Source: Halanaerobium saccharolyticum
Lineage (GTDB): Bacteria > Bacillota > Halanaerobiia > Halanaerobiales > Halanaerobiaceae
Assembly (NCBI RefSeq): GCF_004362045.1
Contig: NZ_SNWX01000004.1
Location: forward strand, 1-42,053
DNA: 42,053 bases
Direction: 5' to 3'
The notes beneath the pieces are model-generated. The model was not told where the DNA came from. It saw only the letters and a list, made by a program, of their open reading frames with translations, and did not search any database. Numbering within the stretch: the first letter of the stretch is position 1; every line of letters begins with the position of its first letter. Position numbers and translations under genes: made by a program. Shown piece by piece: positions 4,656 to 23,171 of this stretch.

Positions 4656-5717
4656 ATGGAAATGAAGAATATAACAATCTCAGATATAGCAGAAGCTTTA
4701 AATTTATCCCGGAGCACAATTGATCGAGTAATAAATAATCGGGGAAGTGTAGCGAAAGAAACCCAGAAAAAGGTTTTAGATTATATAGAAAAAAATGACT
4801 ATAAACCAAATAGGGCTGCCAAACATCTGGCTAAAATGACTAATTGTACGATCGGGATTTCCTATTATCTACCTGAAAAATTTGCAGCTCAAATAAAAAC
4901 TGGAATTGAAGATGTTTATCAGGAATTAAAGGGATATGGTTTAAATTTAATTATTAAAGAAGCATCATCTTTTGCAGAACAAATTGACCAAATTAAAGAG
5001 ATGAAATCAAAAGTAGATGGATTAATGGTTGCTCCCTGGTCGCCTAAAAAAACAAACAGTTTAATTAATAAATTTATTGAGGATAAGATACCTGTTGTAA
5101 CCTTTAATCGAGATGCCCCTGAAAGTAATCGTTTATTTTATTTTGGCTGTGATTATTTTAAAGCAGGTCGGATTTCGGGAGAACTGATTAAAAAAATAAC
5201 TTTAACAGCCGGAAAAATTGCAATTATAAGTAATGATGATGATTTAGTTGGTAAAAGCAGAGTTCAGGGCTTTTATAGTATTTTAAAAGAAAATACTTTT
5301 CATCAAATAATTGGGCCTTTTACAGTTTATGACCATTTTGGGATTAGTGACGCCTATACTCAAAAAGATGTTAATTACATAAAAAAAATTATTGAAGATA
5401 ATCCAGATCTTAAGGCATTTTATGTTGTAAATCAAAGTTTATATTTGGTTGCCAGAGTTGTAAAGGAAATGGGGAAAAAAGATCAGATAAAGGTTATTGG
5501 TTTTGATCTATTCGATAATTTCATTCCCTTTTTAGAAGAGGAAGTAATAGATGCGGTAATCTGCCAGGAACCTTACAGTCAGGGATATTTTCCGGTAAAA
5601 ATTCTTTTTGAAATATTGGTTGAAGATCGGGAAGTGGAAAAGTCAGAATTTATTACTCGTCTGGAAGTTGTGCTCAAAGAAAATCTAAATTATTATCATA
5701 ATTATCATTATCTGTAG
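4656..5717 (+). CDS. LacI-family transcriptional regulator
   Basis: 353 aa. Residues 6-60 are a LacI-type helix-turn-helix and hinge: ITISDIAEALNLSRSTIDRVIN, then an alanine-rich hinge helix at PNRAAKHLA. The remainder (~70-353) is a periplasmic-binding-protein-like sugar sensor. HTH residues SRSTIDR differ from the common SxxTVSR. It is the first gene of the carbohydrate region, and similar palindromes lie before it (4606) and behind it (5754), so it probably controls itself and the following AraR-type gene or operon. A second in-frame ATG two codons on is possible; the ribosome site (TCAGGTGA) is modest. The effector is unknown. Confidence 0.85.
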   Translation: MEMKNITISDIAEALNLSRSTIDRVINNRGSVAKETQKKVLDYIEKNDYKPNRAAKHLAKMTNCTIGISYYLPEKFAAQIKTGIEDVYQELKGYGLNLIIKEASSFAEQIDQIKEMKSKVDGLMVAPWSPKKTNSLINKFIEDKIPVVTFNRDAPESNRLFYFGCDYFKAGRISGELIKKITLTAGKIAIISNDDDLVGKSRVQGFYSILKENTFHQIIGPFTVYDHFGISDAYTQKDVNYIKKIIEDNPDLKAFYVVNQSLYLVARVVKEMGKKDQIKVIGFDLFDNFIPFLEEEVIDAVICQEPYSQGYFPVKILFEILVEDREVEKSEFITRLEVVLKENLNYYHNYHYL

Positions 5718-5753
5718 GATTAACTGATTTATATTATATATTGCTATGGCGTT

Positions 5754-5773
5754 AATGAAGTACGTACTTCATT
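5754..5773. promoter_or_regulatory. Perfect 20-bp palindrome, probable LacI-type operator
   Basis: AATGAAGTACGTACTTCATT is fully self-complementary. It lies 37 bp after the LacI-type gene and 211 bp before the AraR-type regulator, in the control region of the glycosidase locus. It has no following T-run, so it is not a terminator. The related site at 4606 supports recognition by the adjacent LacI protein. Confidence 0.65.
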
Positions 5774-5880
5774 TTTAGGAATTTTAAAAAAATAAATATA
5801 TTGCAGGCCGGATAGTATTTATATCAACAGCAGAACTGAGTTGTTAATTTTCAGAATAAAACATAAATTTAAAAAATTAT

Positions 5881-5909
5881 TTGACAATTAAGCACAAATT
5901 GGTTATTAT
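5881..5909 (+). promoter_or_regulatory. Near-consensus sigma-A promoter for the AraR-type gene
   Basis: TTGACA (5881-5886), a 17-bp spacer and TATTAT (5904-5909). This is the best-matching promoter in the window. Transcription would start near 5916, right at the inverted repeat that follows. Confidence 0.75.
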
Positions 5910-5916
5910 TAATCTA

Positions 5917-5934
5917 TACCGGTCTGAACCGGTA
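5917..5934. promoter_or_regulatory. TACCGGT inverted repeat, probable repressor operator at +1
   Basis: TACCGGT and ACCGGTA arms with a CTGA spacer form an 18-bp inverted repeat immediately downstream of the -10 box. This position would block transcription. The likely binder is the GntR/LacI-hybrid encoded 50 bp downstream (autoregulation, inferred). Confidence 0.6.
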
Positions 5935-5983
5935 CTAAAAATTGCTAATAAACTTATATTGCTAAATAAAAGGCGTGATTATA

Positions 5984-7084
5984 ATGGCTAAAAATTATAG
6001 TTATTTGGATGTAAAAGAAGATCTCAAAAAAAGAATAGAGACCGATAAATATAAAAAAGAAGAGAAAATTCCTTCGGAAAGAAAGTTATCGGAAGAATTT
6101 ATGGTAAGTAGAAATACGGTCAGAAAAGCTATTGAGGAACTAGTATTAGAAAACTATTTAGTTAAAGAACCGGGAAGAGGGACTTTTGTAAGTTCCGAAA
6201 TCAATTCCAATTCTGCTAAAACAAAAACTGGCAATATATTTTTCTTGAGGTGCTTTCATAATAGGTTAAAAAATGGAAACAATGCCTCAAAAATTGGTGA
6301 TGATATTTTTTATCCCCAGGTTGTGGCAGGAATTGATATGATAGCTGCCAAAAATGATTATCACTGTATCTTTAAATATATTTATGAAGATGATATCGAT
6401 CAGAAATTAATTAGTGAAATCAAAGAAAAAGCTGATGGTATTATCTGTGGAGAACTACACAGCACAAAGATGTTGGAAACAATAACTTCAATTAATTTGC
6501 CGGTTGTTTTGATCAGTTCATCAGTTATCAATGATCAGGTAGATGTAGTTGAAATAGATAATTTTACAGGTGCTTTTAACTTAACCAGTCATTTGATTGA
6601 TTTAGGCCATCACAATTTTGCTTTGATTGGTGGTTCTGCTACTAGTCAGCCCTCTAAAGAGAGAAAAAATGGATTTTTTGAAGCATTACAGCAGAATCAG
6701 ATAGAATTTGATCAGAAACATGCAGTTACAAATGGCTGGGATTTTGAAGATGGATATCAGGCAGCTTTAGAAATTTTAGATTTTGAGCAGAGACCGACAG
6801 CAGTTTTTGCGGCCTCTGATCTGCTTGCAATTGGAGCGATTAGCGGTTTTAAAGATCAGGGACTTGCTGTTCCAGATGATATATCTGTGGTTGGTTTTGA
6901 TGACATCGATATGGCCAATCAGATAAAACCGGCTTTAACAACTATGAGAGTCAGGAAAGTCGAAATCGGTAAAGAAGCAGCAAAACTGTTATTTAATAAG
7001 TTTAAAGGTAATGAACGTAGTTATCCGGTAAAAATTACTGTGCCAACCAGATTAATGATCAGGGATTCAGTCAAACAATTGTAG
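5984..7084 (+). CDS. AraR-type regulator: GntR winged helix fused to a LacI-type sugar sensor
   Basis: 366 aa from the ATG at 5984; a GTG three codons earlier is also open, but AAAAGG is better spaced for the ATG. Residues ~4-70 are a GntR winged helix (KIPSERKLSEEFMVSRNTVRKAIEEL...GRGTFV). Residues ~85-366 are a periplasmic-binding-like domain with the LacI-type end AAKLLFNKF...PTRLMIRDSV. This architecture is that of AraR, the arabinose repressor of Bacillus, which fits the arabinofuranosidase gene 37 bp downstream. It probably represses the whole downstream operon through the TACCGGT repeat and is released by a pentose; the exact ligand is inferred. Confidence 0.82.
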   Translation: MAKNYSYLDVKEDLKKRIETDKYKKEEKIPSERKLSEEFMVSRNTVRKAIEELVLENYLVKEPGRGTFVSSEINSNSAKTKTGNIFFLRCFHNRLKNGNNASKIGDDIFYPQVVAGIDMIAAKNDYHCIFKYIYEDDIDQKLISEIKEKADGIICGELHSTKMLETITSINLPVVLISSSVINDQVDVVEIDNFTGAFNLTSHLIDLGHHNFALIGGSATSQPSKERKNGFFEALQQNQIEFDQKHAVTNGWDFEDGYQAALEILDFEQRPTAVFAASDLLAIGAISGFKDQGLAVPDDISVVGFDDIDMANQIKPALTTMRVRKVEIGKEAAKLLFNKFKGNERSYPVKITVPTRLMIRDSVKQL

Positions 7085-7121
7085 ATTTATTGCTGTGAAT
7101 AATAGAAGAGGGGAGAGAATA

Positions 7122-9071
7122 ATGATAAGAAATTATTTAGAGTCAGTTGAGCTTAAAAAGACTAAATTAACCGGCGGATTACTGGCGGAGAAAAATGAGC
7201 TGGTCAGAGAACGGGTGATTCCCTATCAGTGGCAGGCATTAAATGATGAGCTTCCTGATACAGAGCCCAGTCATGCGATTGAGAATTTCAAAATAGCTGC
7301 CGGCAGATCTGAGGGAGAATTTCAGGGTATGGTTTTTCAGGACAGTGATGTGGCAAAATGGCTGGAAGCAGCAGCCTATCAGCTGACAGTTAATCCAGAT
7401 CCGGAACTGGAGAAAAGAGCAGATCAGGTTATTGATTTGATTGGAGAAGCTCAGCAGGAAGATGGCTATTTAAATACATATTTTATAGTTAAAGAACCGG
7501 AGATGAAGTGGAAAAACCTGGCCGAATGCCACGAACTTTACTGTGCCGGCCATCTAATCGAAGCCGCAGTAGCCTATTATCAGGCAACAGGTAAGGATAA
7601 GTTTTTAAAAATTATGCAGAAAAATGCAGATTTAATTGACAGCAAATTTGGGACCGGAGAAAATCAGATTAAAGGGTATCCCGGCCATCAGGAAATAGAA
7701 CTGGCCCTGATAAAGCTGTATAAAGTTACTGGCGAAAAAAGATATAGAGATTTAGCAAAATATTTTATCGACCAGAGGGGAAAAGAACCTTTCTATTTTG
7801 AAAAAGAATGGGAAGAGCGGGGAAAGGTAAATCACTGGCCGGATTTTAAGCAGAATACAGAACGCGAATATTATCAGGCTCAGGCTCCAGTTAGAGAACA
7901 GGAAGCTGCAGTCGGCCATGCAGTCAGAGCCTTATATATGTACAGCGGGATGGCTGATGCTGCCCGAGAAACAGGAGATCAGACTTTAATTGATGCCTGT
8001 AAGAGGCTGTGGAAGAACACCACTCAAAAGCAGATGTATATTACAGGAGGTACCGGCTCCAGTGTTCATGGTGAGTCCTTTACCTTTGATTATGACCTGC
8101 CCAATGATACAGCCTATACTGAAACCTGTGCGGCAGTAGCCCTGGTCTTTTTTGCTCAGCGAATGCTGCATCTGGAGAAAAAGGGGGAATATGCAGATGT
8201 AATGGAAAGAGCTTTATATAATGGGGCATTAAGTGGAATGTCAGAAGACGGTAAGAGGTTCTTTTATGTTAATCCACTGGAAGTTAAACCCGAGATTGCA
8301 GAGAAGCGCCATGATCACCGCCATATTAAGACTCTGAGACAAAAATGGTTTGGCTGTGCCTGCTGCCCTCCAAATCTGGCCCGCTTACTGACTTCCATCG
8401 GCAGCTACATTTATTCCCAAAATGAGGAGGAGCTGTATCTTAATCTTTATAGTAACAGTCAGACAGAAGTCGAATTTAACGGTCAGCAAGTCGAAATTGT
8501 CCAGAAGACTGATTATCCCTGGAATGAAAAGATCGAAATAGAGCTTAAAGCAGAAAAGGAAGTAGAATTTACTTTAGCCTTAAGAATTCCAGGCTGGTGT
8601 AAAAAAGCAGCTTTACAGGTCAACGGCAAAAATATTAATATTCCCGAACATTTAGAGGCTGGGTACTTAAGATTAAAAAGAAGCTGGCAGAATGACAAGA
8701 TAAGTTTAATTTTGAAAATGCCGGCAGAAAAAGTTTATGCCAATCCAGAAGTAAAAGAGGATACAGCAAAAGCAGCTATTCAGCGGGGGCCGCTTGTCTA
8801 TGCTCTCGAAGAAAAGGACAATGGAAATAATCTGGCAGCTATTTACTTAAATGATCAGACAGAATTGAGGCCCGAATTTGAAGAGAAACTTCTGGGTGGA
8901 GTCACTACCATCAAGGCTCAGGCCTCTAAAATTGATGAGTCGGTCTGGACTGGAGAACTCTACAGTACCGAAAAGCCGAAAATGAAAGAGATTGAAATAA
9001 AAGCTGTGCCTTATTACAGCTGGAATAACCGCGGCAGAGGGGAAATGACTGTCTGGTTGAAGTCTAATTAA
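7122..9071 (+). CDS. GH127 beta-L-arabinofuranosidase (DUF1680 family)
   Basis: 649 aa from the ATG at 7122, which follows GAGGGGAGAG; a GTG at 7095 in the same frame lies upstream of that site. The catalytic features of GH127 are all visible: the Glu of HGESF, the zinc ligands E and C of YTETCAA, and the nucleophile Cys plus neighbour in CACCPPN. The enzyme is a zinc-dependent cysteine glycosidase that removes beta-L-arabinofuranose from plant-derived glycans. There is no signal peptide, so it acts in the cytoplasm on imported oligosaccharides. It is directly behind the AraR-type regulator. Specificity inside GH127 is not certain from sequence. Confidence 0.88.
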   Translation: MIRNYLESVELKKTKLTGGLLAEKNELVRERVIPYQWQALNDELPDTEPSHAIENFKIAAGRSEGEFQGMVFQDSDVAKWLEAAAYQLTVNPDPELEKRADQVIDLIGEAQQEDGYLNTYFIVKEPEMKWKNLAECHELYCAGHLIEAAVAYYQATGKDKFLKIMQKNADLIDSKFGTGENQIKGYPGHQEIELALIKLYKVTGEKRYRDLAKYFIDQRGKEPFYFEKEWEERGKVNHWPDFKQNTEREYYQAQAPVREQEAAVGHAVRALYMYSGMADAARETGDQTLIDACKRLWKNTTQKQMYITGGTGSSVHGESFTFDYDLPNDTAYTETCAAVALVFFAQRMLHLEKKGEYADVMERALYNGALSGMSEDGKRFFYVNPLEVKPEIAEKRHDHRHIKTLRQKWFGCACCPPNLARLLTSIGSYIYSQNEEELYLNLYSNSQTEVEFNGQQVEIVQKTDYPWNEKIEIELKAEKEVEFTLALRIPGWCKKAALQVNGKNINIPEHLEAGYLRLKRSWQNDKISLILKMPAEKVYANPEVKEDTAKAAIQRGPLVYALEEKDNGNNLAAIYLNDQTELRPEFEEKLLGGVTTIKAQASKIDESVWTGELYSTEKPKMKEIEIKAVPYYSWNNRGRGEMTVWLKSN

Positions 9072-9139
9072 TGGAAGTTAATTCTAAACTATAATTTTAA
9101 ATTCAGAGTCACGGCTGTACTGCTAAAAGTTGAAATCTA

Positions 9140-9168
9140 CCAGACAAGACTTCTGGCAGTCCAGCCAG
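9140..9168 (+). promoter_or_regulatory. Two overlapping, mutually exclusive hairpins in the GH127-GH31 gap
   Basis: CCAGA/TCTGG (9140-9156) and CTGGC/GCCAG (9153-9168) share four bases, so only one can form at a time. The 200-bp gap 9072-9271 otherwise holds no clear promoter or terminator. They could influence mRNA processing or readthrough between the two genes; this is speculative. Confidence 0.3.
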
Positions 9169-9271
9169 TAAATTACGCTAATTATTATCACAAAAATCGC
9201 AATATTCAAAATAAATTTTATATGGGCTGAGTAGTCCGAAAATAAAATTAATTCAAAAAAGGGGGAGCAGA

Positions 9272-11320
9272 ATGTTTAAGCAGGAAGGAAACAAATTATT
9301 GTATTTGTATGATAACGAAAAAGTAATGGTTGAGCCCTGGGGAGAAAATTCATTAAGAGTGAGAGTTACTCACAATAGTGATTTTAAAAATACAGACTGG
9401 GCTTTACTGCCACCAGAATCTATTGAAGCAGAAATAGAAATCGTAGAAAGTAAAAAAGCAGACACTGATGGTTTATTAGAAATGAATCTGGATGAAGATC
9501 AAAATTATGCGAAAATTAAAAATGGCAAAATAACAGCTGTTTTTAATTCAGCAGGTGTTTTAACTTTCAAAAATGATAAAGGCGAAATCTTGCTTCAGGA
9601 AAACTGGCAGCGCCGAAAAGATAATCCAAGTATGTCACTTAAAAAAAGCGGACGCGAAATGAAAGCTGTGGAGGGAGAAAATTACAGAGCAGTTTACCGC
9701 TTTCAGGCTGATGATCAGGAAAAAATTTATGGAATGGGTCAATATCAGCACAATTATCTGGAACTAAAGGGATGTTCACTGGAGTTAGCTCACCGTAATT
9801 CGCAGGCTTCAGTACCTTTTATGCTGTCCAATAAAGGCTACGGTTTTCTCTGGAATAACCCGGCAATTGGCTCTGTTACTTTTGCCAAGAACGGCACAGA
9901 ATGGATCGCAAAAAGCACAAAACAGGTTGATTACTGGATCACAGCTGGTGATCAGCCTGCAGAAATTGTAGAAAACTACGCAGAGGTAACAGGTAAAGTG
10001 CCCATGATGCCTGATTATGGAATGGGATTCTGGCAGTGTAAATTGAGATACCGGACACAGGAGGAAGTGCTTGAGGTAGCAAGGAAACATAAAGACTTAG
10101 GTCTGCCGATGGATGTAATTGTGGTTGACTTTTTCCACTGGACCCAGCAGGGAGAATATAAGTTTGATCCTGACTGCTGGCCTGATCCCGGAGCAATGAT
10201 CGACGAATTGGAAGAAATGGGAATCAAGGTCATGGTTTCAGTCTGGCCAACAGTTGATTATAGAAGTGAGAATTTTGAAGAAATGATGGAAAAGGGATAT
10301 TTGGTTAGAACAGAACGTGGTGTTAGAGTTACTATGCAGATGTTTGGTCAGGAGGTATTTTTTGATCCTACAAATCCTGAAGCAAGAAAGTACGTCTGGA
10401 ATAAAATCAAAAATAATTACTGGGATAAAGGTGTCAATATTTTCTGGCTTGATGAAGCTGAACCTGAGTACACAGAATATGATTTTGACAATTACCGTTA
10501 CTATCTGGGCTCAAATCTTGAGGTAGGTAATATCTATCCGGTCAAATATGCTAAAGCTTTTTATGATGGCATGAGAGAAGAAGGAATGGAAAATCCGCTA
10601 AACCTGCTTCGCTGTGCCTGGGCCGGAAGTCAGCGTTATGGAGCTTTAGTCTGGTCTGGAGATATTGATTCTACTTTTAATTCTCTGCAGCGTCAGTTAA
10701 GAGCCGGACTCTCAATGGGAATTGCTGGTATTCCCTGGGTAACAACAGATATCGGAGGTTTTCAGGGTGGCAATATAAACGACGAAGATTTCAAAAAACT
10801 ATTAATTCGCTGGTTTGAATTTGGATGTTTTAGTCCGGTCTTTAGATTACATGGTTATCGAATGCCCGGCAGTGACTTTGAAAATGATATGATCTCTGGA
10901 ATCGGCAAATTAGGAAGTGGAGCTGAGAATGAGGTCTGGAGTTACGGTGAAAAGTATTTTAAAATTATGAAAAAATATCTTTTCTTAAGAGAAAGAATTC
11001 GTCCCTATATCTCTAAACAGATGGAAAAAGCACATCAGGACGGAACTCCGGTTATTAGACCATTATTTTATGACTTTCCGGAAGATCAAAAGAGCTGGGA
11101 TATCGATGACCAGTATCTCTTTGGACCGGATCTGCTGGTGGCACCTGTAATTGAAGAGGAAATGTATCAGCGCCAGGTATATTTACCAGCAGGAGCAGAA
11201 TGGAAAGATGCCTGGACAGAAGAGGAATTCAGCGGTGGACAAACAGTAACTGTAAAAGCAGAGCTGGATACTATCCCCTTATTTCTTAAAGATGGTGCTC
11301 AACTGCCAATCAAAGCATAG
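9272..11320 (+). CDS. GH31 family alpha-glycosidase (alpha-xylosidase/alpha-glucosidase type)
   Basis: 682 aa, cytoplasmic (no signal peptide). After an N-terminal beta domain, a TIM barrel starts near residue 245 (MPDYGMGFWQCKLRYRTQEE). The nucleophile is D394 in FWLDEAEPE and the acid/base is D464 in WSGDIDSTF, both standard GH31 positions; the barrel ends with IGGFQGG and SPVFRLHGYR. The WLDEAEPE nucleophile motif and CKLRY are usual in the alpha-xylosidase-like GH31 branch. GGGGGAG precedes the ATG. It lies between GH127 and the sugar importer, so it probably removes alpha-linked xylose or another side sugar from imported oligosaccharides. It differs from the second GH31 at 14563. Confidence 0.88.
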   Translation: MFKQEGNKLLYLYDNEKVMVEPWGENSLRVRVTHNSDFKNTDWALLPPESIEAEIEIVESKKADTDGLLEMNLDEDQNYAKIKNGKITAVFNSAGVLTFKNDKGEILLQENWQRRKDNPSMSLKKSGREMKAVEGENYRAVYRFQADDQEKIYGMGQYQHNYLELKGCSLELAHRNSQASVPFMLSNKGYGFLWNNPAIGSVTFAKNGTEWIAKSTKQVDYWITAGDQPAEIVENYAEVTGKVPMMPDYGMGFWQCKLRYRTQEEVLEVARKHKDLGLPMDVIVVDFFHWTQQGEYKFDPDCWPDPGAMIDELEEMGIKVMVSVWPTVDYRSENFEEMMEKGYLVRTERGVRVTMQMFGQEVFFDPTNPEARKYVWNKIKNNYWDKGVNIFWLDEAEPEYTEYDFDNYRYYLGSNLEVGNIYPVKYAKAFYDGMREEGMENPLNLLRCAWAGSQRYGALVWSGDIDSTFNSLQRQLRAGLSMGIAGIPWVTTDIGGFQGGNINDEDFKKLLIRWFEFGCFSPVFRLHGYRMPGSDFENDMISGIGKLGSGAENEVWSYGEKYFKIMKKYLFLRERIRPYISKQMEKAHQDGTPVIRPLFYDFPEDQKSWDIDDQYLFGPDLLVAPVIEEEMYQRQVYLPAGAEWKDAWTEEEFSGGQTVTVKAELDTIPLFLKDGAQLPIKA

Positions 11321-14562: not shown

Positions 14563-16920
14563 ATGAAATTTACCGAAGGATACTGGCTGAGAAGCGAAAA
14601 AGCTAATCCAATTTATGCTTCCCAGGCCTATAAAGTAGAAGAAATAGAAAATGGAATGAAAATTATTGCTCCCGGGCAGAAAATAGAATCCCGGGCCCAG
14701 ACTTTAAATATCGGCACCATAACTCTGGAGTTTAGAGCGGTGGCTGAAAATGTAATTGAAGTTAAAAATTATCACCACCAGGGTTATGATTCGGGTCAGA
14801 TTGAATTTGAGAAAAATAAAGCTCCCCGCCCGGTGGAAGTCACAATTACTGACAAGGAAGCACTGATGGAAGTAGATGATTTAAAGATTAGAGTTGACCG
14901 CGAAAACTGGAAGTATCAGTTTGAAGCAGAGGGAGAAGTATTAACCTCCTGTGGTTTTAGAAACCTGGGCTATCTGCGCTATGATAAAAAAATTTCTTCT
15001 ATGCTGCCTGGTGACAATTATTTAAAAGCAGATTATGATCCCTACATGCTGACAGAATTATCTCTGGCACCGGGAGAATGTGTTTACGGCCTGGGAGAGC
15101 GCTTTACCGCCTTTGTCAAAAATGGGCAGGTAGTTGAGACCTGGAATGAGGATGGAGGAACCTCTTCGCAGGTAGCATATAAGAGTATTCCTTTTTATAT
15201 GACCAGCCGTGGTTATGGAGTTTTTGTTGATCATGCTGACAATATTTCCTTTGAAGTAGCAAGTGAAAAGGTGGAATATGTAGGCTTTTCGGTTCCGGGA
15301 GAGGAGCTGCGCTATAATTTCATTTACGGCAAAAATAACAAAGAGGTTCTCAGCCGCTATACTGAGCTGACCGGAAAACCGGCCTTACCTCCCGCCTGGT
15401 CTTTTGGACTCTGGTTATCGACTTCTTTTACCACCGATTATGATGAAGAAACTACCAGTTCTTTTATCGAAGGAATGGCAGAGCGAGATATTCCGCTGGA
15501 TGTTTTCCATTTTGACTGTTTCTGGATGGAAGAGCTTAACTGGACCAATTTAAAGTGGGATCAGCGAACTTTTCCAGATCCAGAGTCAATGCTGGAGCGT
15601 TATCATCAGAAAGGTTTAAAGGTCTCTGTCTGGATTAATCCCTACATAGCTCAGGAATCAGAAATGTTCAGGGAAGGCTCAGCAAATGATTACCTGCTTA
15701 AGAGAAAAGACGGTAAGGGAATTAAACAGATTGATCACTGGCAGCCGGGAATGGCTCTGGTTGATTTTACCAATCCGGAGGCAGTAAAGTGGTTTCAGAA
15801 AAAATTAAAGGCGCTGCTGAAAATGGGAGTAGATACCTTTAAAACTGATTTTGGCGAAAGAATTCCGGTTGATGTGGAGTACTTTGACGGTTCTGATCCC
15901 AATTCAATGCATAACTATTACACTTATTTATATAATAAGGCAGTTTTTGAAGTTGTGGAAAAAGAAAGAGGAAAAGGCAATGCAGTATTATTTGCCCGCT
16001 CTGCAACTGCAGGCAGTCAGAAGTTCCCGGTTCACTGGGGAGGAGATAGCTCGGCCAGTTATGCTTCGATGGCTGAAACCCTGCGCGGAGGCCTCTCTTT
16101 TGCAATGTCCGGTTTTTCTTTCTGGTCTCATGATATTGGTGGTTTTGAACAGACAACCACCCCTGATTTATATAAGCGCTGGGTTCAGTTTGGGCTTCTT
16201 TCCAGTCACAGCCGGCTGCATGGTTCCGAGAGCTACCGAGTTCCCTGGCTTTTTGATGAGGAAGCTTCTAAAGTTTTAGAAAAGTTTACTAAACTGAAAA
16301 TGAGATTGATGCCCTATCTTTATTCAATGTCGGTTCAGGCTCAAAATACAGGAATTCCAGTAATGAGGCCTCTGATTTTAGAGTTTGATCAGGATTCAGC
16401 AGTTAAATATCTGGATATGCAGTACATGCTGGGAGATTCACTGCTGGTGGCTCCAATTTTTAATCAAAATGGTAAAGCAGAATATTATCTACCGGCAGGG
16501 AAATGGACCCATTATCTAAATGGTGAAGTTAAAGTGGGAGGCCGCTGGTATCAGGAAGAATATGATTATTTTTCTCTGCCACTATTTGTCAGAGAAAACA
16601 GCCTGATTGCCGAAGGTGCAAGGGATGATCAGGCTGAATATGATTATCTTAAGGGAGTTAGTCTCCATTTGTATCAGCTGCAGGAAGGTCAGGAAGCTGC
16701 CGTAGAATTAGTAAATACTGATGGAAAAATAGTTAACCGAGTTACAGCTATAAGAAACAATGACAGGCTAGAATTTAAACTGGAGCAGCTGGAAGAGAAG
16801 ATGAAGCTCATTTTGCATGCTGTTTCTGAAGTCAAAGCAGTAGAGGGTGGAAGCTATGTCCCAGAGGATAACAGGATTGTAATTACTCCCTCGGCAAAGA
16901 AGATAATTGTTGAATTATAA
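14563..16920 (+). CDS. yicI: GH31 alpha-xylosidase, YicI type
   Basis: 785 aa from the ATG at 14563, which follows GGAGG; upstream in-frame ATG/TTG codons have no ribosome site, and the chosen N-terminus MKFTEGYWLR matches the way YicI proteins start. The nucleophile is D429 in KTDFGERIP and the acid/base is D495 in HWGGDSSAS, spaced 66 residues as in E. coli YicI (D416/D482). The enzyme releases alpha-xylose from the non-reducing end of isoprimeverose and xyloglucan oligosaccharides in the cytoplasm. It is the last gene of the sugar operon and is followed by a terminator. It strongly supports xyloglucan-type substrates for the locus. Confidence 0.92.
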   Translation: MKFTEGYWLRSEKANPIYASQAYKVEEIENGMKIIAPGQKIESRAQTLNIGTITLEFRAVAENVIEVKNYHHQGYDSGQIEFEKNKAPRPVEVTITDKEALMEVDDLKIRVDRENWKYQFEAEGEVLTSCGFRNLGYLRYDKKISSMLPGDNYLKADYDPYMLTELSLAPGECVYGLGERFTAFVKNGQVVETWNEDGGTSSQVAYKSIPFYMTSRGYGVFVDHADNISFEVASEKVEYVGFSVPGEELRYNFIYGKNNKEVLSRYTELTGKPALPPAWSFGLWLSTSFTTDYDEETTSSFIEGMAERDIPLDVFHFDCFWMEELNWTNLKWDQRTFPDPESMLERYHQKGLKVSVWINPYIAQESEMFREGSANDYLLKRKDGKGIKQIDHWQPGMALVDFTNPEAVKWFQKKLKALLKMGVDTFKTDFGERIPVDVEYFDGSDPNSMHNYYTYLYNKAVFEVVEKERGKGNAVLFARSATAGSQKFPVHWGGDSSASYASMAETLRGGLSFAMSGFSFWSHDIGGFEQTTTPDLYKRWVQFGLLSSHSRLHGSESYRVPWLFDEEASKVLEKFTKLKMRLMPYLYSMSVQAQNTGIPVMRPLILEFDQDSAVKYLDMQYMLGDSLLVAPIFNQNGKAEYYLPAGKWTHYLNGEVKVGGRWYQEEYDYFSLPLFVRENSLIAEGARDDQAEYDYLKGVSLHLYQLQEGQEAAVELVNTDGKIVNRVTAIRNNDRLEFKLEQLEEKMKLILHAVSEVKAVEGGSYVPEDNRIVITPSAKKIIVEL

Positions 16921-16946
16921 AAGTAGACATATAATAATTTAAGTGA

Positions 16947-16973
16947 GACAGCTCTGAGAGGGGCTGCCTTTTT
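16947..16973 (+). terminator. Terminator after the alpha-xylosidase gene
   Basis: GACAGCTC pairs with GGGCTGCC (one mismatch, one G-U) and is followed by TTTTT. It closes the carbohydrate operon. Confidence 0.65.
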
Positions 16974-17054
16974 CTAACTGGTAGAGTAAAGCTGGCTGTG
17001 TTATAATAAATTTAAGTGAACTAAAGAATTTTTCTTAGAGGATGGTGACTGTTA

Positions 17055-18752
17055 ATGCTAAAAATACCATATGGGATCAGTAGTTTTGCAGAGTTAAGAA
17101 ACGAAAATTATTTTTACGCTGACAAAACACAATATATTGAGCTGCTGGAAAGTTATGGGGAAAAGTATATTTTCTTTTTACGCCCCCGTCGTTTTGGTAA
17201 AACTTTATTTTTATCAACTTTAGAAAATTATTATGATCTTAATAAAAAAGAAGAATTTGCAGAGTTGTTCTCTGATCTGTATATAGAAAAAAATAAAACA
17301 AAACTGGCTAACAGTTATCATATTTTACGCTTTGATTTCTCCAGTGTTGCTACAACTTCTGAAGAAGAATTATTATATACATTTTTAGTTAAAGTCCAGA
17401 AAGCAATTGAAGTATTTATCAATAAATATGATTTAGATCTGCAGTGTCCTGAAAGTCATGATCCGGCAAGTATGCTAAATCTATTTATGGCCCGGGTACA
17501 GAGTAAAATTGATCAGGAAATATATGTTTTAATCGATGAATACGATCAATTTGCAAATGAAATGCTGGGAGAAGACAATTCTAAATTCAAAAAGGCAGTT
17601 TCGCAAACAGGGTTTGTCCGCAGATTTTATCAGGCTCTAAAAGAAGCAACAGCAGATGGGGTAGTGGATCGGATTTTTGCAACTGGAGTTAGTCCAATTA
17701 CTTTAGACAGTATGACCAGTGGTTTTAATATTGCTGCTAAATTGACTAGAGAACCTGAGTTAAATGAAATGATGGGTTTTACAGCTGGAGAATTGAAACC
17801 ATTGTTAAACAGTCTGGACATTTCAAAAGCAGAAGGATATAATTTAATGGATAAATTAAAAGAATATTATAATGGCTATCTCTTTCATCAGGATGCTGAA
17901 TCAAAGGTATTTAACAGTGACATGGTTTTATACTTCTTTAAATATTATCTGCGGCAGCATAAAGAGCCAGAAGATTTAATTGACAGTAATATCAGCAGTG
18001 ACTATCGCAAATTAGAGCAGCTATTTGCTTTAAATGAAGAAGAAAAAACTAATGAGATTTTAGAAAGTATTTTAAATGAAGAACTGCAGGATGTGGTATT
18101 TACAAGGGAATTCAGCCTGGACAACCGCTTTAATGCAGATGACTTTAAATCACTATTGTTTTATTTAGGGTTTTTAACAATTAAAGAAAAGACTCCGGTC
18201 AATATTAAGCTGGGGCTACCTAATTATGCGATTAAAGAGATTTATTTTGAATTTTTCAGTAAAATAATTGAAGATTATTCAGGTCAGGAAATATTTTCTT
18301 CAGAAACCAGAAAAACTGTAGCTGAGCTTGCCTTAAATGGTAATATTGAGCCTTTAGTAGAAGAAATCGAAGTAATTTTAAATTCTTTATCAAACCGGGA
18401 TTTGATTTTATTTGATGAGAAATATATAAAATTATTATTTATCAGCTATTTAATGCTGAGCAAGTTTTATAATGTAAAAAGTGAATATGAGGTTGAAAGT
18501 GGCTATATAGATCTGGTATTATTCAAAAAAGAAATAGAAGCTGTTAATTATGAAGCTTTAATTGAATTAAAGTATATTAAAAAAAGTGATTATCAAAAGC
18601 AAAAATCAAAGTTACTGTCTGAAAAGATTAAGGAAGCAAAAAATCAGCTATTCGGTTATGGAGAAGCTGAAGAATTCAAACAGAAAGATAACTTAAAAAA
18701 GTGGATAATTATCTTTGCCGGTGCAGATGTTGCTCACCTGGAAGAAATATAA
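17055..18752 (+). CDS. AAA-ATPase-like protein with C-terminal PD-(D/E)XK nuclease domain
   Basis: 565 aa. The N-terminus (IPYGISSFAELRNENYFYADKT) and Walker A region FLRPRRFGKTLF at 41-52, with Walker B YVLIDEYDQF near 155-166, define the AAA-ATPase-like (pfam09820) family. The C-terminal third carries a PD-(D/E)XK pattern: ESGYIDLVLF (Asp) and YEALIELKYIKK (Glu-x-Lys). Such genes occur in many copies in anaerobes; a role in mobile-element biology or defence is suspected but unproven. A truncated paralogue lies at 26216 on the other strand. Its stop codon is followed in the same frame by the tail of a response-regulator gene, which suggests that this gene was inserted there. Confidence 0.85.
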   Translation: MLKIPYGISSFAELRNENYFYADKTQYIELLESYGEKYIFFLRPRRFGKTLFLSTLENYYDLNKKEEFAELFSDLYIEKNKTKLANSYHILRFDFSSVATTSEEELLYTFLVKVQKAIEVFINKYDLDLQCPESHDPASMLNLFMARVQSKIDQEIYVLIDEYDQFANEMLGEDNSKFKKAVSQTGFVRRFYQALKEATADGVVDRIFATGVSPITLDSMTSGFNIAAKLTREPELNEMMGFTAGELKPLLNSLDISKAEGYNLMDKLKEYYNGYLFHQDAESKVFNSDMVLYFFKYYLRQHKEPEDLIDSNISSDYRKLEQLFALNEEEKTNEILESILNEELQDVVFTREFSLDNRFNADDFKSLLFYLGFLTIKEKTPVNIKLGLPNYAIKEIYFEFFSKIIEDYSGQEIFSSETRKTVAELALNGNIEPLVEEIEVILNSLSNRDLILFDEKYIKLLFISYLMLSKFYNVKSEYEVESGYIDLVLFKKEIEAVNYEALIELKYIKKSDYQKQKSKLLSEKIKEAKNQLFGYGEAEEFKQKDNLKKWIIIFAGADVAHLEEI

Positions 18753-18821
18753 TTTGGAGCAGAAGCCGGCGAATATATTCAGACGGTCTGGGGAATTGGC
18801 TATAAGTTTGTTGCCCGGTGA
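18753..18821 (+). pseudogene. C-terminal remnant of an OmpR/PhoB-family response regulator
   Basis: Directly after the TAA of the ATPase gene the same frame reads GAEAGEYIQTVWGIGYKFVAR and then stops. YIxTVWGIGYKF is the hallmark end of the winged-helix DNA-binding domain of OmpR-type regulators. Only the last ~22 codons survive, and no start codon or receiver domain is present. The terminator just downstream would have belonged to the lost gene. This marks an insertion or deletion boundary. Confidence 0.75.
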
Positions 18822-18827
18822 AAAAGT

Positions 18828-18863
18828 AAAGCTGCCCGGAGCAGAGTGGTGGCTTTATTTTTT
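18828..18863 (+). terminator. Terminator of the lost response-regulator gene
   Basis: AAAGCTGCC pairs imperfectly with GGTGGCTTT (7 of 9 bp) and is followed by ATTTTTTT. It now serves the AAA-ATPase-like gene. Confidence 0.6.
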
Positions 18864-18913
18864 ACACTAATTAGATAAATTTGTAAATTATACTTAAAAT
18901 TTCTTCTAAAAAA

Positions 18914-18922
18914 TGTTATAAT
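18914..18922 (+). promoter_or_regulatory. Extended -10 promoter for the integrase gene
   Basis: TGTTATAAT matches TGn-TATAAT exactly, 60 bp before the start codon. Confidence 0.5.
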
Positions 18923-18981
18923 ATAGATAAAGTAAAACTTTTCCAACAAATCTTATTAAATGACTGCAGAGGGGTGATCTG

Positions 18982-19527
18982 ATGAATAAAGTTGAGCCGA
19001 TCAGAGATAAGGATAAAATTGAAGAGATAAAAAATATTTTGCGTCAGCAGAGCTACCGCAACTATATTCTTTTTGTGCTGGGAATCAACACCGGGCTGAG
19101 GATTAGTGATATGCTGAAGCTGAAGGTCGAAGATGTCCGCAATAAAACTCACATTGTAATCAGAGAGCAGAAAACTTCCAAAAACAAGCGGTTTTTGATT
19201 AACTCTAACCTGCGCCGGGAACTGGAAGACTACTGCCAGGATATGCGAGCAGAAGAGCATCTCTTTCAGAGTCGGATTGGGACCAATAAACCGCTAACCC
19301 GTTTTCAGGCCTACAGGATTTTTAGTGAAACTGGTCGCAAAGCTGGCCTGGATAACATTGGCTGTCATTCGACCCGTAAAACTTTTGGCTATCATCATTA
19401 CCAGAAGAATAAGGATGTGGCCCTGCTGCAGAAACTGTTTAACCATTCTTCTCCCAGTATTACCTTAGACTATATTGGGATTACTCAGGATTTAATGGAC
19501 AGCTCAATTGAGAATTTTACGCTTTAG
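18982..19527 (+). CDS. Short tyrosine recombinase (catalytic domain only)
   Basis: 181 aa. All catalytic residues of the tyrosine recombinases are visible in order: Arg in NTGLRISDM, Lys in EQKTSKNKR, HxxR in HSTRKTFGYHH, His in LFNHSSPS, and Tyr in TLDYIGI. The N-terminal SAM-like core-binding domain of full-length integrases (~300 aa) is absent. The ATG follows GAGGGGTGAT. Short recombinases of this kind are common in firmicutes. No att repeats could be assigned to it. It faces the alkaline phosphatase gene and shares a terminator with it. Confidence 0.85.
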   Translation: MNKVEPIRDKDKIEEIKNILRQQSYRNYILFVLGINTGLRISDMLKLKVEDVRNKTHIVIREQKTSKNKRFLINSNLRRELEDYCQDMRAEEHLFQSRIGTNKPLTRFQAYRIFSETGRKAGLDNIGCHSTRKTFGYHHYQKNKDVALLQKLFNHSSPSITLDYIGITQDLMDSSIENFTL

Positions 19528-19558
19528 ATAAAAATTCAAAATTTGCTTTTAAATTAAC

Positions 19559-19586
19559 TAAGCTCTACCCCAAAGAGTAGAGCTTA
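19559..19586. terminator. Bidirectional hairpin between convergent genes
   Basis: TAAGCTCTAC and GTAGAGCTTA form a perfect 10-bp stem with an 8-nt loop, between the recombinase (+) and the alkaline phosphatase (-). T-runs are short on both strands. Confidence 0.65.
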
Positions 19587-19618
19587 ATAATTAATCAAAA
19601 TTAGATTTTGTTTTAGAT

Positions 19619-20869
19619 CTACTGCATAACTTTTTTCATAATTTTAAAAATATCTGTATTATCCAGCGGTTGAGCTACAAGCTCACTACCAGGTCCCTGG
19701 CTCCAGGTAGGTACATCGCCCCCAGTATGGTCTTCACTTGTCCAGCCGGATTCAACTTTTTCACTCTGGCTGCTTAAACTTCCATATGGTCCGGCAATTC
19801 TAAATCCGCCAGTATCATGATCTGGAGCAATTATTACTAGAGTTTCTGATTTACGCAGAGGACTTTGCTCAATCCAGTCAAGAACGGTCTCAACTGATTT
19901 ATCAAAGCCCAGCATTTCAGCCAGCTCATAGTCAAGAGCATTACCATGTCCTGCCCAGTCTATTTGAGATCCCTCCACCATTAAGAAAAATCCATCAGAA
20001 TCTTTTTCCAGAGTTTTAAGTGCGGTTTCTGTCATTTCAGCCAGAGTTGGTTCTTCTTCTGGATATTCCGGGAAAGCATTACCTTCACTGTCTTTAAGTC
20101 CAAATTTATTTAATCTAAATAACTCAGGAGTTTTACCTTTATCATAAGCTGTAAACATACCAAATATTTTTTTACTCTCTTTATTTTGAGCAAGTTTCAT
20201 TTCTGATTCATTATCAACAGTCAGATAAGCATTTTCTCTGGCTAAATCTGCCATTGCTTCATTACTCTGAAGATTATTATATGATTTTTCAAACTGCTGA
20301 GCGTTATATTCATCACTCGTACCATAGACTCCTCCACCCAGCACTACTTCTACCTCAGTTTCTTCTATATATTGGCGGGCAATTTCTGCTCCACAGTATC
20401 TAACAGGTACATGAGACCCAAAGGTTGCAGGTGTAGCATGAGATATCTGAGATGTGGCTACCAGACCTGTGGCTTTATTTAAATCCTTAGCAATCTCAAG
20501 AATTGTTTTGGACTTTTTCTCGATGTCCATAAGTTCTCCATTGACTGAATGGGCACTTACTTCGCGATTATTATGTTTTTCTCCGGTTGCCATAGCAGAA
20601 CCGGCAGCGGCGGAATCAGTGACAGTAGAATTAGCTGAATATGTTCTGATATAACCAATATTATTGAGTTTTTCCATTGCCAGAGGTTCACCATCAGGAC
20701 CATTTTTAAGTATTCGGGCTGCAGTTACAATATCCATGCTCATTCCATCTGGAATCATTAAAATAACATTTTTGGCAGTACTGGCATCGGCAGCATTTGC
20801 AGCAGTAAAAGATGTTACTGTGAGTAAAGCAATAAACAGAAATAATATTAAAGACTTCTTAAATTTCAT
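19619..20869 (-). CDS. Secreted alkaline phosphatase (PhoA family)
   Basis: 416 aa. A signal peptide (KFKK, hydrophobic core, ANA-A cleavage near residue 26) sends it to the periplasm. D41 in MIPDGM binds metal; the nucleophile is S86 in VTDSAAAGSAMATG. Metal ligands are seen in VEGSQIDWAGHGN and APDHDTGG, and the last His is in SEDHTGGDVP. It hydrolyses phosphate monoesters during phosphate scavenging. AGGGGGAAA lies upstream of the ATG on the minus strand. No clear PhoP box was recognised. It forms a single-gene unit. Confidence 0.9.
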   Translation of the reverse strand: MKFKKSLILFLFIALLTVTSFTAANAADASTAKNVILMIPDGMSMDIVTAARILKNGPDGEPLAMEKLNNIGYIRTYSANSTVTDSAAAGSAMATGEKHNNREVSAHSVNGELMDIEKKSKTILEIAKDLNKATGLVATSQISHATPATFGSHVPVRYCGAEIARQYIEETEVEVVLGGGVYGTSDEYNAQQFEKSYNNLQSNEAMADLARENAYLTVDNESEMKLAQNKESKKIFGMFTAYDKGKTPELFRLNKFGLKDSEGNAFPEYPEEEPTLAEMTETALKTLEKDSDGFFLMVEGSQIDWAGHGNALDYELAEMLGFDKSVETVLDWIEQSPLRKSETLVIIAPDHDTGGFRIAGPYGSLSSQSEKVESGWTSEDHTGGDVPTWSQGPGSELVAQPLDNTDIFKIMKKVMQ

Positions 20870-21144
20870 CTAATATTTCCCCCTTTGGTTATTAAGTAAA
20901 TTGATTTTGAGCTTTTCAGTTTCAGAACTACATTTTACCACAAATTTAATTAAGAATATTAAACTTTACTGTTTTCACCCCCATAAAGTTTTGTTTTTTT
21001 CATTATTCTATCTTATATATATTATTACAGGTAATTATTACGAAATCATTACCGACATGTTAAAATGTGGTAAATTCTAAGATGATAGTGAAATTTATTC
21101 GATAAATGGAAAATTTCTTAAATCAAGAAATTAATATTATAACA
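20870..21144. other. Divergent intergenic region
   Basis: AT-rich spacer between the alkaline phosphatase (-) and the toxin-antitoxin operon (+). It holds an 8-bp inverted repeat, AATTTCTT/AAGAAATT, at 21112-21132. On the minus strand that hairpin is followed by TTTTCC and could act as a weak terminator. No reading frame of note is present. Confidence 0.4.
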
Positions 21145-21181
21145 TTGTAAATTAAATCATTTTGTAATACAATAGTATTAC
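21145..21181 (+). promoter_or_regulatory. Promoter with overlapping operator of the RHH-PIN module
   Basis: TTGTAA (21145-21150), a 17-bp spacer and TACAAT (21168-21173). The -10 is buried in a perfect inverted repeat GTAATAC-AATA-GTATTAC (21164-21181) that ends at the ribosome site GGAGG. This is the layout expected for autorepression by a ribbon-helix-helix antitoxin. Confidence 0.7.
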
Positions 21182-21194
21182 GGAGGTGGGTTTA

Positions 21195-21443
21195 ATGATT
21201 AGTGTTAGACTTCCAGAAGAATTAGAGAAAAAGCTAAATCAATTAGCAGAGTCTGAAAATGTCACCAAGACTTATCTGGTTAAAGAAGCTTTAAATAAAT
21301 ATATTGCAGAAAAAGAAGAGAAAAAGGATTCCTATCAATTAGGCAAAGATTTATTTGGAAGGCATGGAAGTAAGGAAGGCGATCTTTCAACTACCTACAA
21401 GAAGAGAGTGAGTGATAAAATTTATGAAAAATACTCTCGTTGA
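21195..21443 (+). CDS. Ribbon-helix-helix (CopG/Arc-type) antitoxin
   Basis: 82 aa from the ATG at 21195, correctly spaced behind GGAGGTGG; a GTG at 21186 overlaps that site. ISVRLPEELEKKLNQLAESENVTKTYLVKEALNKYI is a typical RHH domain (beta strand ISVRL, helix, turn, helix). The charged C-terminal ~40 residues would neutralise the toxin. It overlaps the PIN toxin gene by 20 bp and probably represses the operon through the inverted repeat at 21164-21181. Confidence 0.85.
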   Translation: MISVRLPEELEKKLNQLAESENVTKTYLVKEALNKYIAEKEEKKDSYQLGKDLFGRHGSKEGDLSTTYKKRVSDKIYEKYSR

Positions 21444-21840
21444 TGCTGGCCCATTGATTGCTCTTTTTGATAAAGACGATATTTATCATCAGCAAATTTT
21501 AGAGTTTTTGAAGTCATATAATTGCCATTTATATACTACCTGGCCGGTAATAACAGAAACTCTTCACATGCTCAGTTTTTCAACAGAAGTACAGCTAGAT
21601 TTTTTAAACTGGCTGGACCGGGGTGGATTAAGAGTTTTAAATTTTGATCAAAGAGTTTTAAAGCGGGTAATTAGTTTAACTAAAAAACATAATGATTCAC
21701 CTGTTGATTTTGCTGATGCTTCACTGGTAGCATTGGCAGAAAGAGAAGATATTAAGGACATTATTTCCATTGATTCTGATTTTGATGTTTATAAAACAAA
21801 GAAAAATACTTTTTTAAATAATATTTTTCTCAGCAGTTAA
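21424..21840 (+). CDS. PIN-domain toxin (VapC-like ribonuclease)
   Basis: 138 aa from the ATG at 21424; a GTG at 21412 is an alternative. PIN acidic residues are visible: D in TLVDAGPLIALFD, E in VITETLHML, D in SPVDFADASLVALAE, and D in ISIDSDFDVYK. PIN toxins cleave RNA, often tRNA, with Mg2+. It is paired with the RHH antitoxin encoded upstream (overlapping genes), so it is a type II module with an RHH rather than an AbrB-type antitoxin. Confidence 0.85.
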   Translation: MKNTLVDAGPLIALFDKDDIYHQQILEFLKSYNCHLYTTWPVITETLHMLSFSTEVQLDFLNWLDRGGLRVLNFDQRVLKRVISLTKKHNDSPVDFADASLVALAEREDIKDIISIDSDFDVYKTKKNTFLNNIFLSS

Positions 21841-21882
21841 ACTAAGATTGTAATCAGGAATTAAATAAAGAGGGTGTAGATT

Positions 21883-22302
21883 ATGCTGCCTGAAAATACA
21901 GATGTGCTTATAACTAAGCTTGAGAATCTGGAAGAATATATTAATGATCTGGATGAGTATAGAGAAATAGATTCTGAAAAAATAGTGAAAGATAAATTGA
22001 TTTTCAGATATTTAACAAGAACACTGTATTTGGCTGTAGATACTATGCTGGATATTGGCTGCTGCATTATTAGTAGCGAGCGGCAAGAGAATCCAGGTGA
22101 TAACAGTCAAATTATTAAAATTTTGACTGAAGATAATATTGTAAAGAAGAATGAAGATAATTATATTAAGCTGGCTGAATTTAGGGATTCAATAGGATAT
22201 GATTCTAAAGATATAGATCCTGAGATTTTACTGATGATCATTAAAGAAAATTTAAGTGACTTAAAGGCTATTTTTAGGTGGTATAAGGAGTATATTGATT
22301 AA
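21883..22302 (+). CDS. HepT-like HEPN-domain protein with altered active site
   Basis: 139 aa, all helical. It follows the HepT (DUF86) pattern: AVDTMLDIGCCIIS in the first half and AEFRDSIGYDS near residues 98-108. In active HepT this second motif is R-x4-H-x-Y (RNxxVHxY). Here R101 is kept but the catalytic His position is Tyr (Y106), so the RNase activity is probably lost. Its stop overlaps the ATG of the fused MntA-HepT gene downstream by one base. It may act as an inactive partner or inhibitor of the active fusion; this is an inference. Confidence 0.75.
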   Translation: MLPENTDVLITKLENLEEYINDLDEYREIDSEKIVKDKLIFRYLTRTLYLAVDTMLDIGCCIISSERQENPGDNSQIIKILTEDNIVKKNEDNYIKLAEFRDSIGYDSKDIDPEILLMIIKENLSDLKAIFRWYKEYID

Positions 22303-23171
22303 TGCCTTCAATTCAGGACGGTGAGATCATGGAAAAGTTAAAAAGAAAACTTGAGCCTGAGCTTAAAGAAAATATAGCTGATTTCTTAAAAAAAGAAGTA
22401 AATGTTAAGCTGGCATTCATTTTTGGCTCTTATGGCACGAAGTATCAAAATACCGATAGTGATCTGGATTTAGCTGTGTTTTTTGATGATCCACCGGAGA
22501 TCCTCGAGCAGATGGAGCTGGCAGCACGCCTGGAATTAGAGTTAGGAAAATATGATATTGATTTAATCAATTTAAATAATGTTAAGATAGATTTTAAGTA
22601 TGAAGTAGTTACAGGTGGAAAGTTAATTTACAGCAGAGATGAAATTGAGACTGCTGAGTTTAAAGAAGAGGTTTTAAGATTTGGTTCAGAGGCTGAAGGA
22701 TTTGAATATAATTTTAAGGAAGAGTATATCGCAGCAATTAAGGAGAAAGCAACAGAAATAAATTATGATCGGATAGCAGAGAAAATAAAGTTTATCAAAG
22801 ATAATTTAAAAAAGTTGAAAGAACTAGCTGAACTTGAAAAGAAAGATTTTTTGAGTGATTTTAGAAACTATGATACTGCAAAGTATAATCTGCAGGCAGC
22901 AGTAGAAGCTATGCTGGATATAACAGCACATATTATTTCTCGAGAAGGATATACAAGTCCTAATACAAGTGCTGATTCTTTTAGAATACTTGCTGATGAG
23001 GGGATTATTGAGGAAGATATGCTGTTAAAGTTTGTTAAAATGACTAAATTTAAAAATAGAATTGTTCATCTCTATGATCAAATTGATGAAGAATATATTT
23101 ATCGGATCATAAATAATCATCTGTCAGATATAGAAAGTTTTGTTGATTTAATTGTCAATAGATATTTCTAA
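22302..23171 (+). CDS. Fused MntA nucleotidyltransferase - HepT HEPN protein
   Basis: 289 aa (a second start at 22329 would give 280). Residues ~35-110 are a minimal nucleotidyltransferase: FGSYGTKYQNTDSDLDLAVFF (GS motif, D54 and D56) and the third acid in YDIDLIN. Residues ~155-289 are a HEPN domain with MLDITAHIIS and KNRIVHLYDQID (H256, Y258; the usual Arg of RNxxVHxY is K251). In known MntA-HepT systems these are two proteins: MntA AMPylates the Tyr of HxY to silence the HepT RNase. Here both activities lie in one chain. Its start codon overlaps the stop of the HepT-like gene. Confidence 0.8.
   Translation: MPSIQDGEIMEKLKRKLEPELKENIADFLKKEVNVKLAFIFGSYGTKYQNTDSDLDLAVFFDDPPEILEQMELAARLELELGKYDIDLINLNNVKIDFKYEVVTGGKLIYSRDEIETAEFKEEVLRFGSEAEGFEYNFKEEYIAAIKEKATEINYDRIAEKIKFIKDNLKKLKELAELEKKDFLSDFRNYDTAKYNLQAAVEAMLDITAHIISREGYTSPNTSADSFRILADEGIIEEDMLLKFVKMTKFKNRIVHLYDQIDEEYIYRIINNHLSDIESFVDLIVNRYF

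Follow-up and report, generated by a model that had tools for sequence, protein, structure and literature searches.

Disrupted bacterial genes are rapidly removed by deletion, as described by Kuo and Ochman (2010, PMC2916853), and deletion scars and young pseudogenes take the form of a fragment left between intact neighbours after gene removal. Here we describe a scar of the same form in Halanaerobium saccharolyticum, in a 42,053-nt stretch hereafter called the window (genome G000, contig C4, NZ_SNWX01000004.1, positions 1-42,053). It does not differ in kind from such scars; going by the nearest relative, a functional-looking unit of four ORFs was removed here and not a decayed gene. Two other described systems resemble parts of this unit. 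PhoB/PhoR-type (PnpS/WalK-like) systems combine a regulator that has receiver and Trans_reg_C domains with a kinase that has HAMP, PAS, HisKA and HATPase_c domains, and the lost regulator and kinase have the same architecture. In contrast to those systems, the lost pair falls below all curated cut-offs and, in the loci read, is linked to a gene combining a 5'-nucleotidase C-terminal domain with a LysM domain (nucC-LysM), not to pst genes. In 5'-nucleotidases the C-terminal part contributes the side of the active site where the base is bound. This domain of the UshA-type enzymes aligns to nucC-LysM, including the FPQxSG and GGDG stretches, whereas nucC-LysM has no catalytic metallophosphatase domain and carries a LysM domain at its end.

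Translation of window 17055-18824 gave a 565-aa ATPase, a TAA stop codon (18750-18752) and, with the frame unchanged, F-GAEAGEYIQTVWGIGYKFVAR followed by TGA. The coding part of this tail, 18756-18818, is identical at 21 of 21 residues to residues 205-225 of the intact OmpR/PhoB-type response regulator of the nearest relative, H. saccharolyticum MSL 17.2 (genome G003; reference locus L014, NZ_QLME01000001.1). Translation, the L014 comparison and a Pfam match all identify 18756-18821 (forward strand) as the last 21 codons plus the stop of such a regulator gene, confirming that, as the initial annotation proposed, a response-regulator gene has left its ghost here. That annotation counted 22 codons; the tail is real and stands in frame behind the ATPase stop, but the first codon (TTT, 18753-18755) belongs to the ATPase side and sequence from the regulator begins only at 18756 or 18757, leaving 21. 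Over the 20 residues and stop compared, the DNA differs from the L014 regulator gene by three synonymous differences and no amino-acid change, and chance resemblance to a regulator is excluded at the DNA level. The 22-codon tail matched positions 62-77 of 77 in the Pfam Trans_reg_C profile (E = 0.0025), the C-terminal end of the winged helix that would be expected of an OmpR/PhoB-type remnant; its 18.3 bits lie below the curated cut-off of 26.2 because just 22 aa remain. A receiver domain with a phospho-acceptor is absent from the window locus and present in the ortholog at L014 9163-9840, and the tail is therefore a remnant and not a working regulator. Since the tail would share the ATPase frame by chance in one case out of three, the shared frame carries little weight. 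Reading of the sequence revealed no in-frame ATG, GTG or TTG in the tail. Lacking a start codon and lying behind a stop codon, it is very probably untranslated, and the remnant is probably inert.

A DNA search for the tail and its flanks covered 61 genomes: the window's own, 11 of the same genus and the remainder more distant. The tail and right flank were matched at G003:C1:232164-232388, while the ATPase gene was found to end at G003:C1:236731-236785. DNA alignment with the L014 locus gave two collinear blocks, in which window 14563-18756 corresponds to L014 1239-5432 at 92.1% identity and window 18756-21187 to L014 9775-12202 at 93.3%. Base-by-base comparison with L014 5429-5432 placed the last aligned bases of the ATPase side, TTTG, at 18753-18756 (forward strand), and the blocks meet at 18756, where one G is common to both sides. 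Between the two flanks, L014 has an extra 4343 bp (5433-9775) that are missing in the window; the relative is 7-8% diverged, so this size and the one-base overlap are values of a proxy ancestor. Within the missing segment are the ATPase terminator, an oppositely oriented ORF of 171 aa, the nucC-LysM gene, the histidine-kinase gene and codons 1-204 of the regulator gene.

These comparisons show directly which segment is missing, where the junction lies, that the ATPase gene is intact and that relatives keep the whole unit, and the event behind these differences was almost certainly one deletion of ~4343 bp in the window's Halanaerobium lineage that left the regulator tail behind the ATPase gene. 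The deletion would span from four bases behind the ATPase stop to codon 204 of the response-regulator gene, removing everything listed above, including the first nine tenths of the regulator gene; 21 regulator codons, the regulator stop and the regulator terminator would be left behind the ATPase. A deletion next to the ATPase gene was one of two causes offered by the initial annotation, and the two collinear blocks meeting at 18756 bear it out. Across 12 Halanaerobium genomes (the window's own and 11 others), the unit of nucC-LysM, kinase and regulator is intact in six (G002, G003, G007, G008, G009 and G011), and the three genes are neighbours in the same order in 6/6 loci read. A recombinase gene directly follows the regulator in five of these six loci (not in G011). 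The direction of change would be loss and not gain, because the unit is intact and in the same order in half of the genomes and the recombinase stands behind the regulator as it stands behind the scar. Loss in the window lineage is accordingly the simplest reading, which a 4.3-kb insertion completing a regulator gene in G003 is not. An intact regulator at the same spot in relatives, the check proposed in the initial annotation, was thus found, and the outcome that it had named as adverse, no response regulator in any genome, did not occur. Compared with its L014 counterpart over 566 codons, the ATPase gene has amino-acid changes in 24 codons as well as 79 synonymous differences. The changes in the tail, three synonymous and none nonsynonymous, suggest little neutral time since the loss, but their number is small and some of them arose on the relative's branch. 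The scar is a well-resolved deletion of an ordinary kind, a case of gene loss, and a clean example of an apparent fusion with a gene ghost resolved by one relative. Among the matches listed for the pseudogene and deletion literature there was one Halanaerobium paper, on IS200/IS605 elements.

The left flank of the scar is an intact gene (17055-18752, forward strand), unaltered by the deletion, for a 565-aa protein with AAA-ATPase_like (PF09820, E = 2.1e-56) and PDDEXK_9 (PF08011, E = 1.7e-17) domains. Its ortholog in G003 is 96% identical, is also 565 aa long and has the same place, the same stop and the same upstream GH31 gene. A different origin of the tail would be insertion of the ATPase gene into the regulator gene, or recombination between the two, so that the ATPase took the place of most of the regulator; this was the other cause that the initial annotation had offered. 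This would suit the patchy distribution of the ATPase, found at ≥ 88% identity in three of 13 genomes searched (G000, G003 and G001, in a search that left out G009 to G013), and the G001 ATPase, which in the stretch read has other neighbours on both sides and loses identity soon after the stop codon. It is scarcely credible given L014, where this ATPase gene stands at the corresponding position behind the same GH31 gene and a complete regulator lies 4.3 kb downstream; nor are relatives without the ATPase gene needed to reveal the regulator, as had been supposed, since L014 carries both. Because the relative has an ATPase of the same length at 96% identity, the gene was neither inserted into the regulator nor fused with it. 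The description "fused in frame" comes down to adjacency: no single open frame runs across both genes, which are separated by the TAA at 18750-18752; the ATPase ends at its own stop, with the same length as in L014, and the tail has no start codon. Other ATPase-like sequences were also seen. A partial copy at G003:C1:271264-271683 covers query residues 306-445 at 84% identity in an open frame of 154 aa, and for a paralog on C1 both matching pieces lie inside one open frame of 590 aa.

With the deletion, a terminator-like hairpin of the lost regulator gene (18822-18862, forward strand, by folding) is now the first behind the ATPase gene. Folded as 18818-18862, it has an energy of -17 kcal/mol and z = -4.06, with 0/200 shuffles as good, and the homologous regulator hairpin in the relative (L014 9838-9885) has z = -3.49. 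Directly behind the ATPase gene, the relative has a stronger terminator-like hairpin (L014 5436-5500, z = -8.10), and this one is part of the missing segment. These predictions indicate that the ATPase gene exchanged its own terminator for that of the regulator by the deletion; the only consequence predicted for the ATPase is a transcript ending at the regulator's terminator. The tail might then have been kept for function, with the regulator's terminator serving the ATPase gene and the remnant retained for that purpose, a suggestion favoured both by the well-formed hairpin and by the location of the ATPase's own hairpin in the missing segment. We regard it as unlikely, as it explains the hairpin only and not the 21 codons, and a recent loss equally explains the lack of decay.

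The two ends of the deletion were compared over 60 bases on either side. No direct repeat of ≥ 8 bases links them, the only repeats being two 7-mers at unmatched offsets, and there was no inverted match of ≥ 8 bases. A repeat-mediated deletion is hence not supported, and the break was probably joined without homology. Elsewhere in the window's own genome, the 4343-bp segment gave five short matches only (47-72 bases, 75-81%; 40 of 224 candidates scored), and protein searches gave paralogs only, the best at 44% for the regulator, 30% for the kinase and 36% for nucC-LysM. By these protein searches and scored DNA candidates the segment is not found elsewhere in the genome, and translocation of the unit was rejected. 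The junction rests on one draft assembly of the window strain (3.36 Mb, 99.89% complete, contamination estimate 3.79%), and its 79 contigs invite the question of whether the 4.3 kb are present in the strain and were dropped in assembly. Such an artefact is most improbable: the segment is unique sequence without end repeats that could lead an assembler to bypass it, the match to the relative is equally good on either flank, and the segment is on no contig. A misjoin alone would have left it on another contig of so complete an assembly, and its absence from all of them speaks against misassembly.

The right flank of the scar is the short tyrosine recombinase gene (18982-19527, forward strand; 181 aa; PF00589, E = 1.8e-25), whose product matches the C-terminal part only of Xer models. 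Tyrosine recombinases recombine between matching core sites. It is very unlikely that this recombinase made the deletions at the locus. In its favour, the losses in the window and in H. congolense (described below) both end within ~230 bases upstream of the recombinase gene, and gene content on either side of the gene varies between species; but the two losses have different ends, the window junction has no shared core or repeat, and the only inverted pair near the gene is a weak one (23 nt, 74%), with one arm in the gene and the other behind it. A recombinase-run invertible element was also considered and rejected, as the window region holds only weak inverted pairs. In L014, a perfect 16-nt inverted pair behind the recombinase gene looks like a terminator. 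Recombinase paralogs at 68-71% identity occur in several Halanaerobium genomes, with two more in the window's own genome (contigs C17 and C14), and some have two kinds of ORF beside them, one MarR-like with a winged helix and one flippase-like (ORFs read at L056). An unrooted tree of seven recombinase genes set those of G000, G003 and G005 apart from the other four with a support of 100, the order within the three being supported at 70. Further to the right, window 21412-23171 has a gene for a PIN-domain protein and a nucleotidyltransferase/HepT-like fusion gene, along with a 139-aa ORF that is similar to the HepT-like half of the gene next to it. These genes are toxin-antitoxin-like, and gene content there varies between species.

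From comparison of the loci, H. congolense seems to have lost the unit separately, leaving a different remnant. The recombinase and phoA proteins of its locus (G005, L072) are 95-96% identical to those of L014, and to their left lies an EamA/PTS region resembling the one left of the unit in G008 (L072 5498-9840 versus G008, 80.6%). The EamA neighbour was found in 6/21 genomes, four of them in the genus and one of these four a partial match. There are 188 bases between the EamA/PTS region and the recombinase promoter, and the match to L014 resumes at 10029. The first part of these 188 bases, taken with the few that precede it (L072 9833-9902), is similar at 73-75% to the beginning of the 171-aa ORF gene (E = 2.7e-9 for G009, 4.0e-7 for G002 and 9.7e-9 for G008), which by our count is about the first 16 codons. 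The same remnant gave no significant collinear match to G003, the closest genome with the 171-aa ORF gene (best collinear E = 0.13). L072:9833-10028 consists of this remnant and 126 bases without a match, where relatives have the kinase/regulator unit. Since the left flanks of the window and H. congolense losses differ, the simplest view is that the two were independent. That two lineages lost the unit by different routes suggests that its benefit may depend on habitat.

In L014, domain searches identified three of the four ORFs of the lost unit. The first, the 171-aa ORF after the ATPase gene and on the other strand to it, has no Pfam or NCBIfam match. It is followed by nucC-LysM (L014:6377-7300), whose 307 aa comprise a 5'-nucleotidase C-terminal domain and LysM; by a 593-aa histidine kinase with HAMP, PAS, HisKA and HATPase_c domains, encoded between nucC-LysM and the regulator; and by the 225-aa response regulator with Response_reg and Trans_reg_C domains (L014 9163-9840). 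Both the 171-aa ORF and nucC-LysM start with signal-peptide-like stretches, as predicted by eye. Across the six genomes with an intact unit, identity to the query was 75-100% for the regulator, 59-100% for the kinase and 50-100% for nucC-LysM. The five other genomes, G001 (75% complete), G004, G005, G006 and G010, had no regulator match of ≥ 75%; in G001, G004, G006 and G010 the unit may have been lost or may never have been present. Among solved structures, nucC-LysM matched 5'-nucleotidases in their C-terminal parts (2z1a, E = 1.2e-23; UshA 1ho5, E = 1.6e-17), and in its orthologs (6/6 aligned) GGDG is invariant and FPQxSG is conserved (invariant or nearly so). It is plausible from these features that nucC-LysM would be an exported binding protein feeding the kinase. 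More tentatively, and with considerable doubt, the lost unit might be an undescribed system sensing extracellular nucleotides or nucleosides, in which an exported nucC domain lacking its catalytic half, tethered to the wall by LysM, would bind a nucleotide without cutting and inform the PAS/HAMP kinase and OmpR-type regulator; the unit would be dispensable, Halanaerobium having lost it on at least two occasions through different deletions at one locus. Among the matches listed for Halanaerobium and histidine kinase, no title or abstract opening concerned the lost unit, and among those listed for extracellular nucleotides and two-component systems none concerned the nucC-LysM/kinase/regulator arrangement. 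A nucleotidase binding domain without the enzyme, linked to a sensor kinase, would be worth a test in species that keep the unit.

The initial annotation had also tentatively suggested that the lost regulator was matched to the alkaline phosphatase as a PhoB-type regulator, and neither gene neighbourhood nor the PhoB cut-off supports this. The alkaline phosphatase gene, phoA, lies beside the recombinase gene in three of the seven loci that have the recombinase (the window, L014 and L072). It is absent in four of the five loci with both an intact regulator and the recombinase (L013, L015, L073 and L074) and, in the stretches read, is adjacent in one of the six intact-regulator loci (L014; not L013, L015, L071, L073 or L074). 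A link to alkaline phosphatase was therefore rejected on gene neighbourhood. The best model for the intact regulator ortholog was PhoB (TIGR02154), at 218.5 bits under a curated cut-off of 296.2. For the lost kinase the best NCBIfam models were WalK, PnpS and PhoR, with scores under the cut-offs (WalK 329.6 of 725; PnpS 319.1 of 400). Contig C31 of the window's genome encodes another regulator/kinase pair, which scored 258.7 of 296.2 for PhoB, below the cut-off, and 427.0 for PnpS, above the cut-off of 400. This PhoB/PhoR-like pair lies ~3.5 kb before genes passing the PstS, PstC, PstA and PstB cut-offs. Because this pair near pstSCAB has been kept, it is unlikely that phosphate control was lost through the window deletion. 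The interval between the pair and pstSCAB is occupied by a gene for an ACR3-type transporter and a second gene that is also transporter-like. The stretch as a whole (L080:3466-15835, G000:C31), with a Na/Pi cotransporter-like gene, the PhoB/PhoR-like pair, the ACR3-type arsenite efflux gene and pstSCAB, forms a phosphate/arsenate neighbourhood.
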